A DNA stretch of 64,000 nt. It comes from Corynebacterium sp. HMSC29G08 (GTDB lineage Bacteria > Actinomycetota > Actinomycetes > Mycobacteriales > Mycobacteriaceae). Under the pieces are notes generated by a model. That model made no database searches. It worked only from the letters and a program-made list of their open reading frames with translations, and was not told where the DNA came from. The stretch covers positions 1 to 64,000 of the forward strand of contig NZ_KV786277.1 of NCBI RefSeq assembly GCF_001806875.1, given 5' to 3'. Positions 2,092 to 38,560 of this stretch are shown here, one piece after another; position 1 is the first letter of the stretch; each line of letters opens with the position of its first letter. The position numbers were made by a program, and so were the translations under genes.

Positions 2092-5000
2092 CTACCTGCT
2101 AGACGTACGGCGTGTCGCCCTACGACGTCCACGACGCTGCGAGACCTCAACATGTGCCGCCTCGCGCTTCGTTTGAGCAGCGCGCTTCTGCGAAGACTCG
2201 CCGCCCTTGCCCTGGGCAGAGCCTGTACCCGACTGGGAACGGGCAGCAGCCGTCGAAGTGCGACGCGTTGCCCTACGACGCTGACGCGTACGCGGTTTCG
2301 CAGCAGAAGAGCGGCGAGCACTGCGACTGCCTTCGCGCGGCGATGCTTCCGCCCTTTCCTCTACCGCTACTTCCGCTACTTCCGTGATGAAGTCCTCACG
2401 CTTCGGACGGTGATCCGAGCGCGAGTTCCCACGCGTGCGGCGCTTACGGCGCGGTGAGGACTCAAACTCCTCAACCGCCTCCTCATAGGTCTGGGTTGGG
2501 GTGTTGACGTTGGCGTCGTCAAGCTGAAGCTCCTTGCCGCGCCCACGGGAACCACCGCGACGACCGCGGCGGCGCGGACGCTTCTCCTGCGGCTCTTCGA
2601 TGTCAGTGGCTGCCTCAACAATGATCGAGTCGGCGATCTCATCCAACATCTCATCCAACTCAGCCTCAACGGCCGGATCGATGTCCTTCGGAGCAGCTTC
2701 TTCGCGCATCGCCTTCGCCACCGGGTGCTCCCCCTTCGGACGACGGCGACCCCTGCGATCCTTGCGGCTGTCCTGGCTATCGCGGTGCTCGTGGTGCTCA
2801 TGGCCATCAACCGGGTCATCAGCAACCAAAATCCCGCGGCCGCCACACACCTCACACGGCTGCGCGAACGTCTCCAGCAGGCCAGTGCCCAAACGCTTAC
2901 GCGTCATTTGCACCAAGCCTAGCGACGTCACCTCAGAAACCTGATGACGCGTACGATCACGGCCCAACGCCTCCTTCAAACGACGCAGTACCAAATCCTG
3001 ATTCTCCGGCAAGATCATGTCAATGAAGTCAACGATGATGATCCCGCCAATGTCACGCAGGCGAATCTGACGCACAATCTCCTCGGCAGCCTCAAGGTTG
3101 TTCGAGGTCACGGTCTCCTCCAACGAACCGCCGGAGCCCGTGAACTTGCCCGTATTGACGTCAATGACCGTCATCGCCTCAGTGCGATCAATGATCAAAG
3201 AACCACCCGACGGCAGCCACACCGTGCGCGACAGCGCCTTCTCAATCTGCTCATCAACGCGGTAGACCTCGAACGCGTCCTGGCCGTCGTGCTTATTACG
3301 GTCGAACTTCACCAGGCGGTCCAGCAGGTCAGGCGCCACCGACTCCACATACGCATGCACGGTGTTCCACGGCTTACGGCCGTCTACAACCAGCTCGGTG
3401 AAGTCCTCATTAAACAGGTCACGCACAACCTTGACCAACAGGTTCGGCTCTTCATACAGCGTGACCGGGGTTGCACCCTTGGCGTTCTTCTCCTTCTCCG
3501 CATGGTTCTGGATAGCCTCCCACTGCGTGTGCAAACGGTTCACATCCGCCGCAATGGCCTCCTCCGACACGTTCTCCGCGGCCGTGCGAATGATTGCGCC
3601 ACCCTTGCCCGGAACCACGTTGTTCAAAATCTCTTTAAGACGCTTACGCTCCGGCGCCGGCAACTTCCTCGAAATGCCCGCACTGCGGCCGCCCGGCACG
3701 TACACCAAGTAGCGCCCAGCCAGCGAAATCTGCGTGGTCAGCCGCGCACCCTTGTGCCCAATCGGGTCCTTGGTCACCTGGACCAGCACCTGGTCACCGG
3801 ACTTCAGGGCATGTTCTATACGACGCGAGCGTCCACCCAAACCCGCCGCCTTCCAGTCCACCTCACCGGCGTAAAGCACACCGTTGCGACCCTGGCCGAT
3901 ATCAATGAACGCGGCCTCCATACTGGGCAGCACGTTCTGCACACGGCCCAGGTAAATATTGCCGATCATGGACGCCTGAGCGTCGGAGGTGACGAAGTGC
4001 TCGACCAACAGGCCGTCTTCAAGCACGCCGACCTGCGTGATCTTGCCCGTACCGTCATGCCGCTCGCGTTCACGCACCACCATGGTGCGCTTCACCGACT
4101 CACGACGCGCCAAGAACTCCGCCTGCGACACAATCTTGGAACGCTTCCGCCCCTCCTCGCGCTTCTCGCTGCGACGACGACGCTGCGCCTCCAACCGCGC
4201 CGAGCCCTTAATCGCCTTCGGCTCCTCGATCACCTCGGCGTCATGGGTGTCCTGGTTGTCATGGTTGTCATCGGCGTCCTGGTTGTCGTGGGGGTCCTGG
4301 GTGTTTTGCCGGTTTTGTGCAGTGCTAGACCTGCGCGAACGACGACGCTTCGGCTGCGCCTGCTGCTTGGCCCCCTCACCAGTTTCGGCGGCGGTGTCCT
4401 CGGTAGCCACCTGGTCCTGGTCGTGATCCTGGTCCGGCTTCTGGTCCTGATCCGGCTTCTGGCTTGGGCGGCTCGCGCGGCGACGCGTCGAGCGTGCTGG
4501 CGCTTTAAACACCGGCGCATACGCAGCAGCTTCCTCGGCCGGCGCCGGGGTGACCTCCGGCTCAACGTCCGTAAGCAGGGCCTTTGGGTTTTCTGCGGTT
4601 TCTGCCTCCGCTGCACTGTCTACGTCTTGTGCGCGCTCAGCGCTTTCGGCATTTCCAGCGCTTTCGGCAAGCTCGGCTTCCACCTTGCGCTCAATCTGGT
4701 TGATCTCGTTAGCAACGTCCTTGCGCACACGCTGGCGGATCTTTTCATCCGCCTCATCAGCGGCAGCGCTATCCTGCGCTCCGGACTGCCCGGACTGTCC
4801 GGCCCCCTCAGTGTTGGTCGCTTTTGCAGACAACGCAGTCAGCAACTGCTCTGCCTCCGCACGCGTCAACGTAGACTGCGCAACCTTCACCAACCCCTGC
4901 TCAGACAGCGCAACGACTAGGTCTTTCGACGGCACATCCAGTGCCTTGGCCAGGTTGAACACACGCGTCTTCTCACCAAGCTGGGAACGATCAAACGCGT

Positions 5001-33230: not shown

Positions 33231-33257
33231 TTAGCGTGTGGTTTAGCGTGTGGTTTA
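33231..33257. repeat. Stop-codon tandem repeat at the ettA end
   Basis: A 12-base unit (TTTAGCGTGTGG on the plus strand) is repeated so that the ettA TAA is followed in the same frame by two more TAA codons, 12 and 24 bases later. Confidence 0.8.
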
Positions 33258-34925
33258 GCGGGTGAGCTTACGGTGTGTCACACGAGACGGCTTGGCCGCT
33301 TCCTCACCAAGGCGCTCAACCTTGTTCTTCTCGTAGTCGCCGAAGTTGCCCTCGAACCAGAACCACTTGCCCTCTTCAATGTTGCCCTCCCAGGCAAGGA
33401 TGTGGGTACAGGTGCGGTCCAAGAACCACCGGTCGTGAGAAATCACCACAGCGCAGCCCGGGAACTTCTGCAGCGCGTTCTCCAGGGAACCAAGGGTTTC
33501 AACGTCCAAGTCGTTCGTCGGCTCATCGAGCAGGATCAAGTTGCCGCCCTGCTTCAGTGTGAGCGCCAAGTTCAGGCGGTTGCGCTCACCACCGGAGAGC
33601 ACCTTGGACGGCTTCTGCTGGTCCGCACCCTTGAAACCAAAGGCAGACAGATATGCGCGTGAAGGCATCTCGTTCTGGCCAACCACGATGTAGTCCAGTC
33701 CATCAGAAACCACTTCCCACACCGTCTTCTCCGGATCGATGTTCTCGCGGTTCTGGTCAACGTAGGACAGCTTCACCGTGTCACCGACTGTGACGGTGCC
33801 GGCGTCCGGCTCCTCCAAGCCCACGATGGTCTTGAACAGGGTGGACTTACCCACACCGTTGGGGCCAATCACGCCCACAATGCCGTTGCGCGGCAGGGTG
33901 AACGACAGGTCTTTGATCAGGATGCGGCCGTCAAAGCCCTTGTCCAGGTGCTCAACCTCAACAACCTTGTTGCCCAGGCGTGGCGGGGTCGGAATCTGGA
34001 TCTCTTCAAAGTCCAGCTTCTTGTACTGCTCCGCCTCAGCAGCCATCTCTTCGTAGCGCTCTAGACGAGCCTTGTTCTTCGCCTGGCGTGCCTTCGGGGA
34101 GGAACGCACCCACTCAAGCTCGTTCTTCAGGCGCTTCTGCAGCTTCTGGTCCTTCTTGCCGGCAACCTCAAGACGCTCAGCCTTCTTCTCCAGGTAGGTG
34201 GAGTAGTTGCCCTCGTACGGGTAGAGCTGGCCGCGGTCAACCTCACAGATCCATTCTGCGACGTTGTCCAGGAAGTAGCGGTCGTGAGTAATGGCAAGGA
34301 CGGCACCCGGGTAGGTCTGCAGGTGCTTCTCCAGCCAAAGCACGCTCTCGGCGTCCAGGTGGTTCGTCGGCTCATCAAGAAGCAAAAGATCCGGCTCGCT
34401 CAGCAGCAGCTTCGCAAGCGCCACGCGGCGGCGCTCACCACCAGACAGGTTGGTTACCGCAGCGTCAGACGGCGGGCAGCGCAGCGCTTCCATCGCCTGC
34501 TCAATCTTGGAGTCAACCTCCCAAGCGTCAGCGGCATCCAGCTCCTCCTGGAGCTTGCCCATCTCCTCCATCAACTCATCGGAGTAGTTGGTGGCCATCT
34601 CCTCGGCGATCGCCTCGAAGCGCTGCTTCTTCTCAAAGATCTCGCCCAGGCCCTCTTCGACGTTCTCACGAACCGTCTTCTCTTCATTCAACGGCGGCTC
34701 CTGCAGCAAAATGCCAACGGAGGCACCGGGCTGCAGAAACGCTTCACCGTTGTTCGGCTGGTCAATGCCAGCCATGATCTTGAGCAAGGACGACTTACCG
34801 GCGCCGTTGGGGCCGACGACGCCAATCTTGGCGCCGGGGTAGAAAGCCATGGTGACGTTGTCCAAAATGACCTTGTCACCGATGGCCCTGCGAACATTTT
34901 TCATCGTGTAGATGAACTCAGCCAC
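33255..34925 (-). CDS. ettA: Energy-dependent translational throttle protein
   Basis: EttA is an ABC-F ATPase that binds the ribosomal E site and gates early elongation. The 556-residue protein has two ABC domains: Walker A GPNGAGKS near residue 40 and GPNGVGKS near 357, signatures LSGGERRRVAL and LSGGERNRLNL, and Walker B LLLLDEPTNHLD and LILLDEPTNDLD. The two-helix linker and ARM insert between them fit the EttA subgroup. It starts with GTG. The stop codon lies in a 12-base tandem repeat. Confidence 0.96.
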   Translation of the reverse strand: MAEFIYTMKNVRRAIGDKVILDNVTMAFYPGAKIGVVGPNGAGKSSLLKIMAGIDQPNNGEAFLQPGASVGILLQEPPLNEEKTVRENVEEGLGEIFEKKQRFEAIAEEMATNYSDELMEEMGKLQEELDAADAWEVDSKIEQAMEALRCPPSDAAVTNLSGGERRRVALAKLLLSEPDLLLLDEPTNHLDAESVLWLEKHLQTYPGAVLAITHDRYFLDNVAEWICEVDRGQLYPYEGNYSTYLEKKAERLEVAGKKDQKLQKRLKNELEWVRSSPKARQAKNKARLERYEEMAAEAEQYKKLDFEEIQIPTPPRLGNKVVEVEHLDKGFDGRILIKDLSFTLPRNGIVGVIGPNGVGKSTLFKTIVGLEEPDAGTVTVGDTVKLSYVDQNRENIDPEKTVWEVVSDGLDYIVVGQNEMPSRAYLSAFGFKGADQQKPSKVLSGGERNRLNLALTLKQGGNLILLDEPTNDLDVETLGSLENALQKFPGCAVVISHDRWFLDRTCTHILAWEGNIEEGKWFWFEGNFGDYEKNKVERLGEEAAKPSRVTHRKLTR

Positions 34926-35016
34926 GTGGTATCCCCTTGTGTTAAACAGTGCTTGAAATGCTTTCCACAGGGTACATCACGCGCGCCCTTGCTAGAGCGG
35001 CAGGAACACTAGGTTT

Positions 35017-35643
35017 CTAAAAGGGTCTCCCGTCCTCATCAACCCCTGCCGCGGCACCGACTAGCTCATCGTTAGATTCGGCGCTGGATTCAGTCGTTGG
35101 CGCGGTGTTGGCTCTATCCCCAAAGCTTGGCGCCATGGGTTTCCTCGGCGGCAGCTGGTCCTCCGCACTTTGGCGAGGTTGACTGTTGCCACGCAGCAGG
35201 TCTTCTAAGGATTTCACCTGTACCTCTTCGGTGCCCTCCACAGTGTGGGAGACGCTGGTGGTCTTGCGCGAGTTGATCTGGAAGTTTCCCAAGTCAAACG
35301 CGACGCGGCTCGCGCGCATGACAATCTTTGAGCGGTTGACGGTCTTGCCGTCTTCGCCGGTTTCCTCCCACGACTCTGTAAGCAAACGGCCGGTGATAAC
35401 AACAGGGCTGCCGCGAAACAGCGACGCCTTGACGTTTACCGCCAGGTCACCCCAGCAATTGACGTCAATGTAGAGCTGGTCAATGTCCATCCAGACGTCT
35501 TTGCCGTGTTCATCCTTTTCGTCGGTGCGGCGGCGTCGTGAAGAAGCAACGCGCAACTTGGACAGTGCGGTTCCCTTCTCTCCTACGCAGGCGATGGTCG
35601 GTTCTGCAACAAGGTTGCCGTGGATGGTGATGTCGGTGCTCAT
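35017..35643 (-). CDS. Single-stranded DNA-binding protein paralogue
   Basis: The 208-residue protein has an OB-fold in its first ~125 residues: DITIHGNLVAEPTIACVGEK, VASSRRRRTDEKDEHGKDVW, LYIDVNCWGDLAVNVKASLF and GSPVVITGRLLTESWEE. The tail is rich in Pro and acid but lacks the DDDIPF tip of the main SSB, so it is likely the second actinobacterial SSB, linked elsewhere with recombination or development. It stands just downstream of a terminator built from two DnaA boxes. Confidence 0.85.
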   Translation of the reverse strand: MSTDITIHGNLVAEPTIACVGEKGTALSKLRVASSRRRRTDEKDEHGKDVWMDIDQLYIDVNCWGDLAVNVKASLFRGSPVVITGRLLTESWEETGEDGKTVNRSKIVMRASRVAFDLGNFQINSRKTTSVSHTVEGTEEVQVKSLEDLLRGNSQPRQSAEDQLPPRKPMAPSFGDRANTAPTTESSAESNDELVGAAAGVDEDGRPF

Positions 35644-35770
35644 GGAAGAGCCCCCCTTTCCGTGATTTTCCTTCTAAACAGTTACCGGTTGTTCCCGGCG
35701 GTTCGGGCACGTTCTTTTGCGTACCCACGGGCAGAATCTCACGGCAACACCTGCTTGCCAACCCCCAAAG

Positions 35771-35804
35771 AAAAAAGCTGTGGATAACTCGGAAGTTATC
35801 CACA
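35771..35804 (-). terminator. Terminator made of two inverted DnaA boxes
   Basis: TGTGGATAACT and AGTTATCCACA form an 11-bp stem with a four-base loop, and on the minus strand AGCTTTTTTC follows, a classic intrinsic terminator for the CopD-CtaG gene. Each arm contains the exact DnaA box TTATCCACA. The site is also directly upstream of the ssb paralogue. Confidence 0.8.
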
Positions 35805-35833
35805 CTTAATGAAAACGCGCAGTTCAGGACACC

Positions 35834-37807
35834 CTATTGGCGATTGTATTGCGCCAGCATCTCGTTGTAGCGGCGCCATTCATCATCATCGTTTTCCTCC
35901 GCGCGGCGATCCACCTCACGGGTTTCCTCACGGTCCTCAGCCAACCAGGCACGGAACAGCACGCCGAAGACGATCACAAGCGGGAACGAGCCAGACGCCC
36001 AACCAATGCCACCGCCGGCCTTCTGGTCCGCCAACAGATCCGGGTCCCACGGCAGTGCCAGCATGCGGTAGAAGTCCTCTGCCAGCACCGTGCTGAGCTG
36101 CATGAGGTAGACACCCATGAACAGGTGGATCGGCATGGACACCCACAGCCACGCAAGGCGCGCCTTCGCACTGACACGGCCCGGGATCTCATCAGGACCA
36201 ATCAGTTCCCAGAAATAGAAGTAGCCAGAGACCATAAATATGCCGTTCATGATCACGTGGCCTGCGTGTTCCGAAATCATCAGCTCATACAGCGACGGGA
36301 ACAGGTACATCACGTAGAAGAAGAACACGAATTGTCCCAAGCTCAGAGGCGGGAACGTCACAACCCTCAAGAACTTCGAGTTTTGGAAGCTCTCCGCCCA
36401 CAGTCGCGGGTTGAATTCGCCTTCCGGGTAGGCGCGGCGGATCAGCGTCAGCGGCGCGCCAAGCACCATAAATACTGGTACCACCATGGACAGGATCATG
36501 TGCACTGTCATGTGTGCGGAGTAGGACGCCGGCATGTGCATTCCTAAGCGCGAAGACAGCGTGATCACAATCGTCGCACAGCCCGCAAGCCACCAGAGGG
36601 TGCGGGAGAGCTCCCAACTCTTCACGCGTCGCACCAGGGAGAGGTAATACACGGCCAACAGCAAGGCGATTGCACTGTAAAGCAGCTCCGGACGCCACAA
36701 GGTCAGCCAGTTGCCCACGGTGAGCGGCTCGTGCAAGTCGTAGCCCATCTTCACCTGCATCACAGTGATGTTGAACACTTGCGGCGGTGGCGGCGGCGTG
36801 CGCCCAAGCGTTGCCGCCAGGCCGGTAATCAGTGCCATGAACAGCACTTCTACGGTGGCCAGACGAGTAAACGCCCGCGGGTTGGTGCTCAACACTGGAA
36901 TGGTTTTCTGCCGGTGCACAAAGCCCATCAGCCCCAGGATGAAGATGCCCACAAACTTAACAAGCAGGACCCACCCGTAGTGGTACTGCGTGAGCTGCTC
37001 AGGTGCGATGCGGATCAACGCGTTAACCACGCCGGAGGCCAGCATGACAATAAAGCTCACCAGCGCAATGGTTGAGTACCTGCGCACCGCCTGCTCCATG
37101 TTGGGTCCAAGCCTGCGCCCGTGTGCCACCAACGCTATCAGCGCCCCGACCCACAGCAGCATCCCAACCAGGTGCCAGATAAAGGAGTTGGTGCCAAAGT
37201 CATGGTTGCCGCCGGATGCGGAGTGGCCGGTCAGCGCCAGCGGCATGATGGCAAGCACCGAGCCGAGAAACAGCGCCACCTGCGGCCACCAGGTGCGTGC
37301 TATGAATCCCCCGACCGCCACTACTGCTGCGATCGCAGCAACGATGAGCCACACCTTGGCTTCTTTGACCTGGTCAATGGCGGTGGACCACGCGCCGGGG
37401 CTGAACAGGACATCTTTTAGGGGCTGGCCCGAAACGTCTGAAAGCACCAGTGGAATCATGATCAGTCCGAGAGCCATCATGCTTATCGACGCCCACGCCC
37501 CCACCCGCGACGCCACCACCCCATCCACCGTCAATGGGGCCTGGTTGAGGTCTTTGCCCACCTGCTTCGGCGGGATCAGAAACGCGGAGAAGAGGAAGGA
37601 CCCGCTGGCCAGTGCCGCCAGCATCCACGCCGCCCCGCGAACTGCGGGCAGCCCGAACGTGGTCGGCCACCCCGGGTCAGGAATACCCAGCACCGCCAGC
37701 GACTCACCGGAGAACAACTGCCCCAACGTTCCCGCCAGAATTCCTGCAAGAAGTATTGAGGTGAGATAGAACGGCCACGCCGCCTGCACAGACCGCTTTT
37801 CACGCAT
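35834..37807 (-). CDS. CopD-CtaG fusion membrane protein
   Basis: The 657-residue protein joins two membrane domains. The N-terminal half (to about residue 330) is CopD-like, with several helices and the histidine-containing NSFIWHLVGMLLWVGALIAL. The C-terminal half is a Caa3/CtaG domain (WLAGCATIVITLSSRLGMHM, SAHMTVHMILSMVVPVFMV, ISEHAGHVIMNGIFM) linked to copper delivery to cytochrome oxidase. About 14-15 membrane spans are expected. The fused form is usual in actinobacteria. The tail is acidic (AEENDDDEWRRYNE). Confidence 0.92.
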   Translation of the reverse strand: MREKRSVQAAWPFYLTSILLAGILAGTLGQLFSGESLAVLGIPDPGWPTTFGLPAVRGAAWMLAALASGSFLFSAFLIPPKQVGKDLNQAPLTVDGVVASRVGAWASISMMALGLIMIPLVLSDVSGQPLKDVLFSPGAWSTAIDQVKEAKVWLIVAAIAAVVAVGGFIARTWWPQVALFLGSVLAIMPLALTGHSASGGNHDFGTNSFIWHLVGMLLWVGALIALVAHGRRLGPNMEQAVRRYSTIALVSFIVMLASGVVNALIRIAPEQLTQYHYGWVLLVKFVGIFILGLMGFVHRQKTIPVLSTNPRAFTRLATVEVLFMALITGLAATLGRTPPPPPQVFNITVMQVKMGYDLHEPLTVGNWLTLWRPELLYSAIALLLAVYYLSLVRRVKSWELSRTLWWLAGCATIVITLSSRLGMHMPASYSAHMTVHMILSMVVPVFMVLGAPLTLIRRAYPEGEFNPRLWAESFQNSKFLRVVTFPPLSLGQFVFFFYVMYLFPSLYELMISEHAGHVIMNGIFMVSGYFYFWELIGPDEIPGRVSAKARLAWLWVSMPIHLFMGVYLMQLSTVLAEDFYRMLALPWDPDLLADQKAGGGIGWASGSFPLVIVFGVLFRAWLAEDREETREVDRRAEENDDDEWRRYNEMLAQYNRQ

Positions 37808-37898
37808 GGCAACAACCCTACGTTTCCAACGTTTTCTAGGCCTAACCGGCTCTTGGTGTTCTTTGTGTGTTGGGCTGCGTTACAATCCCTCGTGTACT

Positions 37899-37972
37899 GC
37901 CTCCATAGCTCAGTGGATTAGAGCAACCGGCTTCTACCCGGTGTGTCGCGGGTTCGAGTCCTGCTGGGGGCG
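37899..37972 (+). tRNA. tRNA-Arg(UCU)
   Basis: Acceptor GCCTCCA pairs with TGGGGGC, anticodon stem ACCGG/CCGGT has loop CTTCTAC (anticodon TCT), and the T arm has GGGTTCGAGTCCT. CCA is not encoded. A copy of the 69-bp palindromic element lies 30 bases downstream. Confidence 0.97.
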
Positions 37973-38002
37973 CTTTTCGTCGAGGTTCAGCAACGGAATC
38001 CA

Positions 38003-38071
38003 CGTTTGTAGCTACCTACCTGTAGCTATCAGTCCCTTTTTCGCTTGGTAGCTGCGTCTAGGTAGCTGCAA
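38003..38071. repeat. Dispersed 69-bp palindromic element, copy B
   Basis: This is the inverted counterpart of the element at 25410-25478: it begins CGTTTGTAGCTAC and ends GTAGCTGCAA, with the same length and about 70% identity when reversed. It lies between tRNA-Arg and a small membrane protein gene and could fold into a long hairpin. Confidence 0.8.
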
Positions 38072-38101
38072 ACAGTTCCAAAGCCGCGTACACTTTCCAC
38101 T

Positions 38102-38560
38102 ATGGAAAATATGGAGGCAGCAAAAGCCGTACGAGACGCCCGTGATGCACTGCGCGCCGCCGAATACGTTGAAACGCGCGCAACCGAGACAACCACATCA
38201 AAACCGTGGGCGTACATCATTCCAACTGGAATTGCCATGGGTCTGGCGTTTTTCACGGCACTTATGGAGCAAGTGCTGATCACATTCCTCCTCATCGCGG
38301 GCACCATCGTTCTTGTTTGGGCCGTAGAGGGGCGCAGGAAATCTGCGGTGCGCATTTCCTACAAGCAAGAGGTGCGCCCGGACGACACCACGTGGAGCTG
38401 GACCACGTTCCTTTTCTACATGGCTAGCTACACCGTTTTATACGTCGGTCTCCAGTTCCTGCCACGCAACAACATCGCCGTGGCAGCTACCGCTGGCACA
38501 CTCATCGCGATCGTCTTCATCGTGGCGACGAGCCTTACGTGGGGGCGAGTATCCAAGTGA
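38102..38560 (+). CDS. Four-helix membrane protein
   Basis: The 152-residue protein has a charged N-terminal helix of about 35 residues (AKAVRDARDALRAAEYVETR) and then four hydrophobic segments (about residues 38-52, 55-72, 103-120 and 125-147). No family is recognised. The ATG lies seven bases after TACACT, so it is probably leaderless. The next gene, a winged-helix regulator, overlaps its stop, which is the common layout of a membrane protein paired with its PadR/ArsR-like partner. Confidence 0.8.
   Translation: MENMEAAKAVRDARDALRAAEYVETRATETTTSKPWAYIIPTGIAMGLAFFTALMEQVLITFLLIAGTIVLVWAVEGRRKSAVRISYKQEVRPDDTTWSWTTFLFYMASYTVLYVGLQFLPRNNIAVAATAGTLIAIVFIVATSLTWGRVSK

Follow-up and report, generated by a model that had tools for sequence, protein, structure and literature searches.

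The replication initiator DnaA is also a transcription factor, acting through boxes located at promoters where it represses or activates (PMC8203912, PMC4447404); the words "competence", "ssb" and "Corynebacterium" do not occur in the main text of a review on this function (PMC8203912). In Mycobacterium tuberculosis, DnaA binds in vitro a region upstream of Rv0010c with a palindrome of two box-like sequences at its centre, located 65 bp upstream of the start codon, and the homologous region of M. smegmatis is DnaA-bound in ChIP-seq (PMC7738170). M. tuberculosis DnaA also binds a site upstream of dnaB, and, in the part of that work consulted, neither ssb nor competence genes are among the five strong DnaA regions (PMC7738170). 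In Streptococcus pneumoniae, more DnaA induces competence, an effect ascribed to the initiation rate and not to regulatory properties of DnaA (PMC8394987), and the control of the Micrococcus luteus comEA/EC promoter has been studied in a work whose consulted text does not contain the word DnaA (PMC6667448). In the open-licence literature, preprints aside, no report of DnaA boxes or sites before competence genes was found, and the literature matches listed there contained no work on natural transformation in Corynebacterium. To our knowledge, the control of competence genes in actinobacteria is poorly understood.

We analysed a 64-kb window (64,000 nucleotides) of Corynebacterium sp. HMSC29G08 in which two facing DnaA boxes precede ssbB, a gene for a single-stranded DNA-binding protein (SSB) paralogue. 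From sequence comparisons, the pair is probably a DnaA operator in the ssbB promoter region and one of a set placed before competence and DNA-processing genes.

Two facing DnaA boxes upstream of ssbB

The window contains only two exact copies of TTATCCACA, box 1 at 35779-35787 on the minus strand and box 2 at 35796-35804 on the plus strand. In dinucleotide shuffles of the window, the mean number of exact boxes was 0.17 and at least two were present in 1 of 100 shuffles. The sequence of 35779-35804, TGTGGATAACTCGGAAGTTATCCACA, bears out the first-pass annotation, which had described two exact inverted boxes eight bases apart: they lie head to head, separated by 8 bases, within the perfect arms of an 11-bp inverted repeat (35779-35789 and 35794-35804) closed by a 4-base loop (35790-35793). 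The site had also been placed upstream of an ssb paralogue, and ssbB indeed starts at 35643, 135 bases beyond the pair. This gene (35017-35643, minus strand) encodes a protein of 208 residues which matches the Pfam SSB family (4.9e-12) and, below the cut-off of the model, NCBIfam PRK05853 (1.1e-20); the ssbB protein of another genome of the genus (G146) is 88% identical. Its upstream neighbour, on the same strand, encodes a CopD/Caa3_CtaG fusion membrane protein (copD, 35834-37807) and its downstream neighbour the EttA ABC-F protein (33255-34925, minus strand). In the 70 orthologous loci, copD is found directly 5' of ssbB in 66 and the EttA gene directly 3' in 51, 40 loci being short and possibly cutting the latter gene off. 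The pair as a whole (35779-35804, without assigned strand) is proposed as the ssbB operator from its sequence and its retention before ssbB orthologues.

As RNA, the pair folds into a hairpin of -17.3 kcal/mol (z = -2.96) whose stem counts 11 pairs, including 4 G-C pairs. After the stem, the minus strand continues with GCTTTTTTCTTT; the GC and six T adjoining the stem (35771-35778, minus strand) form the tail of a probable copD/ctaG terminator, and no T-run follows the stem on the plus strand. The terminator with a T-run announced by the annotation thus applies to the minus strand, the copD/ctaG side, and not to the plus strand. Since the T-run exists on the minus strand only, such a terminator would stop copD/ctaG transcription shortly ahead of ssbB. 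Stem and T-run here do follow a gene of the same strand, copD/ctaG ending at 35834 on the minus strand, as in an intrinsic terminator. The pair is the first-listed of 6 terminator-like sites in the region 34800-38200, for 3.4 (sd 2.0) in shuffles. In this same region, a scan for sigma-70-type promoters found zero promoters, and the search for RNA families at gathering threshold gave no match at the pair, the only one being a tRNA at 37899-37972. A possible minus-10 hexamer of the TAnnnT type, TAACTT, can be read on the minus strand at 35793-35798, overlapping box 2; this reading is speculative. In another genome (G010, locus L031:1501-1576), the copD-ssbB interval holds a tandem of two near-identical head-to-head pairs, flanked on both sides by T-runs or A-runs, an arrangement like that of a double bidirectional terminator.

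Conservation of the pair

At least one exact head-to-head pair was detected in 180 of the 242 genomes of the genus and in 0 of the rows listed for the reversed-letter control. Tail-to-tail pairs occur in 146 of the 242 genomes, many of them, by their coordinates, near oriC or the ends of closed chromosomes; as they are also common, paired boxes are by themselves nothing special.

The annotation had proposed to look for the same arrangement before this gene in other corynebacteria, and the boxes are kept there: with at most 3 mismatches over the 18 box positions, 60 of 70 ssbB loci carry a pair ahead of the gene (44 with at most 2 mismatches, 33 with at most 1). Conserved boxes upstream of the gene are a feature of DnaA-regulated promoters, as are at least two close box matches, which are here two exact boxes with oriC-like flanks. 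The ssbB sample was drawn from 104 genus matches and consisted of the top 68 by rank plus G217 and G003, G073 and G204 being skipped and the pair of G003 being known before selection. At the same limits of 3 and 2 mismatches, pairs were present upstream of the carbon-nitrogen (CN) hydrolase gene in 27 and 26 of 30 loci, of comEA in 22 and 21 of 30 and of yraN-comM in 26 and 21 of 30; for each gene, the 30 best-matching genomes were taken, out of 158, 156 and 118 with a match, respectively, and the yraN query came from a pair-carrying genome. No pair with at most 3 mismatches was seen in the remaining 10 ssbB, 3 hydrolase, 8 comEA and 4 yraN loci. The reversed-letter control of the four gene sets gave 0 of 160 at 3 mismatches; on the downstream side of these genes, 1 of 156 regions had a pair (at comEA), and block-shuffled upstream regions gave 5 of 3200. 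A narrower first search frame had yielded 57 of 70 loci for ssbB, 15 of 30 for the hydrolase and 8 of 30 for comEA, and was widened after this first pass since pairs had been cut at the frame edge or were spaced wider. Orthologues with a lone exact box were considered and dropped, L102 and L105, which first looked so, having turned out to carry wider pairs. Upstream of comEA, GGTGACG was noticed between the two boxes in loci L161, L163-L165 and L167-L170, and is possibly part of a promoter.

Outside the genus, among the matches listed for named genomes, a Rothia isolate carries a pair flanked by a DUF2469-like gene on one side and yraN-comM on the other. In Rothia, where 34 genomes had a match and the best 30 were taken, 14 of 30 yraN loci have a pair with at most 3 mismatches, for 1 of 30 in the control and 0 of 30 downstream.

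Conservation: boxes or hairpin

Boxes and hairpin were compared in 57 ssbB orthologues with the pair, the outer length being limited to 46. At mirrored positions, 71 one-sided and 6 two-sided changes were counted, for 6.35 two-sided changes expected if the arms were independent, in loci picked by at most 3 box mismatches, a selection which leans against seeing two-sided changes. Read in the copD direction, 21 of the one-sided changes lead to G-U and 50 to a mismatch. In these orthologues, TCCACA is conserved at 91-100% per position, and 17 of the 60 ssbB pairs combine one exact box with a partner bearing 2 or 3 mismatches. As the arms vary independently and TCCACA is kept, it is the boxes that are conserved, and base pairing is not selected; the hairpin was rejected as a conserved feature on the absence of compensatory change. 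The annotation was to be abandoned if conservation went no further than a hairpin needs, and the boxes are kept beyond that need. Their flanks (G before, G after) are similar to those of 63 exact boxes from 14 presumed oriC loci.

Of the 57 orthologues, 14 have a T-run of at least 5 after the pair in the copD direction, which 43 lack, and 1 has such a run in the opposite direction. The runs in the copD direction indicate that some of the palindromes, including that of this genome, probably also terminate copD. Stem pairing and T-run are not conserved in the orthologues, so that a terminator role of the pair is plausible in this genome and not general.

Pairs in this genome and the genes they adjoin

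The 2.4-Mb genome contains 40 exact boxes and 7 exact head-to-head pairs, against 4 and 0, respectively, in the reversed-letter control. Besides the window pair, one lies by dnaA, one before comEA-comEC, one at the CN-hydrolase gene, whose start codon it touches, and three at HNH-nuclease genes, at most 50 bp from the predicted starts. The comEC gene adjoins comEA (Pfam Competence, 3.3e-41). No recognisable pair was seen at the yraN-comM operon of this genome (L385). A second DnaA-like protein was ruled out as the regulator, the genome having a single PF08299 protein, at dnaA. At L013:3087-3107 of this genome, two exact boxes form a direct repeat, three bases apart, with near-boxes around. Two single exact boxes (L008:3097-3105 and 3359-3367) stand upstream of an open reading frame (L008:3412-4869) which resembles dnaB, a parallel with the DnaA bound upstream of dnaB in M. 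tuberculosis.

Among 107 distinct exact pairs, which are those in the fetched genus loci after removal of repeats and not a random sample, 80 face a gene from one of the recurrent families and are placed at its start or ahead of it. The 107 pairs were assigned to HNH genes (46), the dnaA/rnpA side (14), yraN (10), ssbB (9), CN hydrolase (7), genes resembling one that matches MTES_1575 below threshold (5), DUF4192 (2) and comEA (1), and 13 were left unassigned. An element shared before DNA-uptake and DNA-processing genes was found for comEA-comEC, yraN-comM and ssbB, with this genome as an exception at yraN-comM. The distance to the predicted start is 38-62 bp for 35 of the 46 HNH pairs and 94-183 bp for the nine exact ssbB pairs. 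Of 27 hydrolase loci, 11 have a TAnnnT hexamer that shares bases with the right box, the ATG then lying at the end of this box; in 14 the hexamer comes immediately after the right box, and 2 show neither arrangement. A pair at this likely core promoter fits repression best and also allows activation.

HNH genes seem to be multi-copy in G052 (28 pairs), G009 (9) and G229 (7), of which some copies were examined, and their pairs form groups with nearly the same spacer, as though they had spread recently. The name 13E12/DUF222 was dropped for these proteins, for which Pfam gave HNH alone. In two genomes, an exact pair was observed between a DUF4192 gene and a divergent open reading frame, at L211:1527-1561 (DUF4192 identified by Pfam) and L275:951-973 (DUF4192 judged by eye).

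Spacing of the boxes

The outer length of the pairs covers a wide range, from 24 to about 50, which is more than one rigid complex would suggest; clusters are seen at 24-25 and 35-40, and comEA often has pairs of about 48. The mean within-genome difference in spacing was 2.67, for 5.94 after shuffling (32 genomes, 186 pairs; 0 of 2000 shuffles below 4.5), in a set of genomes mostly chosen for their many pairs, from which the pairs judged oriC-proximal by position had been removed and in which three dnaA-adjacent pairs (G036, G130, G142) remained. Without the seven copy-rich genomes, the values were 3.21 and 6.92, and with single-copy orthologues 9.68 and 11.43 (p 0.002, 27 genomes). The idea of a single spacing for each species, which was strong with abundant HNH copies and modest for single-copy genes, was retained as no more than a tendency. 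The likeness within genomes hints at a complex of set geometry.

Alternative explanations

This hint is the main point for an operator of another dimeric regulator whose half-site would equal the DnaA box, since spacing is more alike within than between genomes, as if one complex set the distance, and weakens for single-copy orthologues (9.68 vs 11.43, p 0.002). Such a regulator is nevertheless rather improbable: the half-site flanks are similar to those of presumed oriC loci, DnaA is the sole PF08299 protein of this genome, and the variants TTGTCCACA, TTTTCCACA and CTATCCACA are within the usual range of DnaA boxes. We consider it unlikely that the pair is merely the intrinsic terminator of copD/ctaG, with a stem reading as two DnaA boxes by chance. 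Between copD and ssbB, the 11-bp stem and six T do have the right strand, and T-runs prefer the copD direction (14 against 1 of 57), but pairing is not preserved, with 50 mismatching one-sided changes and two-sided changes no more frequent than expected, whereas the letters of the boxes are, 43 of 57 orthologues are devoid of a T-run of 5, and pairs also occur where termination is senseless, such as abutting the hydrolase start codon.

The abundance of pairs before HNH genes (46 of 107 distinct exact pairs), together with G052, where the three examined among 28 pairs (L183, L188, L193) all precede HNH genes, would agree with a target or autoregulatory site of the HNH family itself, the other genes being bystanders. 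This is very unlikely, as ssbB, yraN, comEA and the hydrolase gene keep the pair at their own sites in most loci examined, and yraN also does so in part of the genus Rothia. Boxes which titrate DnaA or set replication timing without regulating their neighbours would account for the tenfold excess of exact boxes over the reversed control in the genome (40 vs 4), yet such boxes could work in any gene context, in either orientation and at any distance to a start, and these are largely kept. In a datA-type titration locus, several DnaA boxes are densely clustered, for which the two of this site are a low number; counting exact boxes, the 64 kb contain just these two, which leaves titration highly improbable.

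Proposed role of the pair

The preferred reading remains a DnaA operator. Three suggestions had been made by the first-pass annotation, namely titration of DnaA, regulation of ssb and a block to transcription; regulation of ssb is the best supported, because further DNA-uptake and DNA-processing genes have the same pair at promoter distance in front of them, while binding of DnaA at the pair and the sign of regulation are inferred. A pair shared by several such genes suggests that the replication initiator controls them. The putative operator set would comprise the pairs which, in many species of Corynebacterium, stand before ssbB, comEA-comEC, yraN-comM, the CN-hydrolase and HNH-nuclease genes and a few others. 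Two DnaA molecules would bind the facing boxes, and bound DnaA would most likely repress transcription until it is withdrawn or its nucleotide state changes, because at the hydrolase gene, where the arrangement can be made out, the pair and a promoter-like hexamer overlap. DNA uptake and the handling of single-stranded DNA would in this way be coupled to the replication state of the chromosome. Where a T-run follows, as here and in a minority of the other genomes, the palindrome probably also ends the copD transcript.

The wider proposal, that DnaA directly regulates a competence and DNA-processing regulon of Corynebacterium through head-to-head pairs embedded in promoters, that this control reaches part of Rothia, in another order, at yraN-comM and that uptake follows replication, appears to us evenly balanced. 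If true, DNA uptake would be linked with replication status and need no dedicated competence regulator, and the often multi-copy corynebacterial HNH nucleases would gain a regulatory home. With a shared operator and an obvious candidate regulator, the control of competence genes becomes directly testable.

Comparison with known systems

The pair shares stem, loop and T-run with an intrinsic terminator in this genome, and differs from it by the lack of compensatory change and by a T-run mostly missing in the orthologues. In S. pneumoniae, likewise, the level of DnaA affects competence, but the effect is attributed there to the initiation rate and not to DnaA as a regulator. The site upstream of Rv0010c in M. 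tuberculosis, a member of the same order, is also a palindrome of two box-like sequences upstream of a gene; it is however a single site, at another gene, whereas the Corynebacterium pair recurs at several genes. As in other DnaA-regulated promoters, the boxes are located at promoters, and in Corynebacterium they would constitute a recurrent paired operator.
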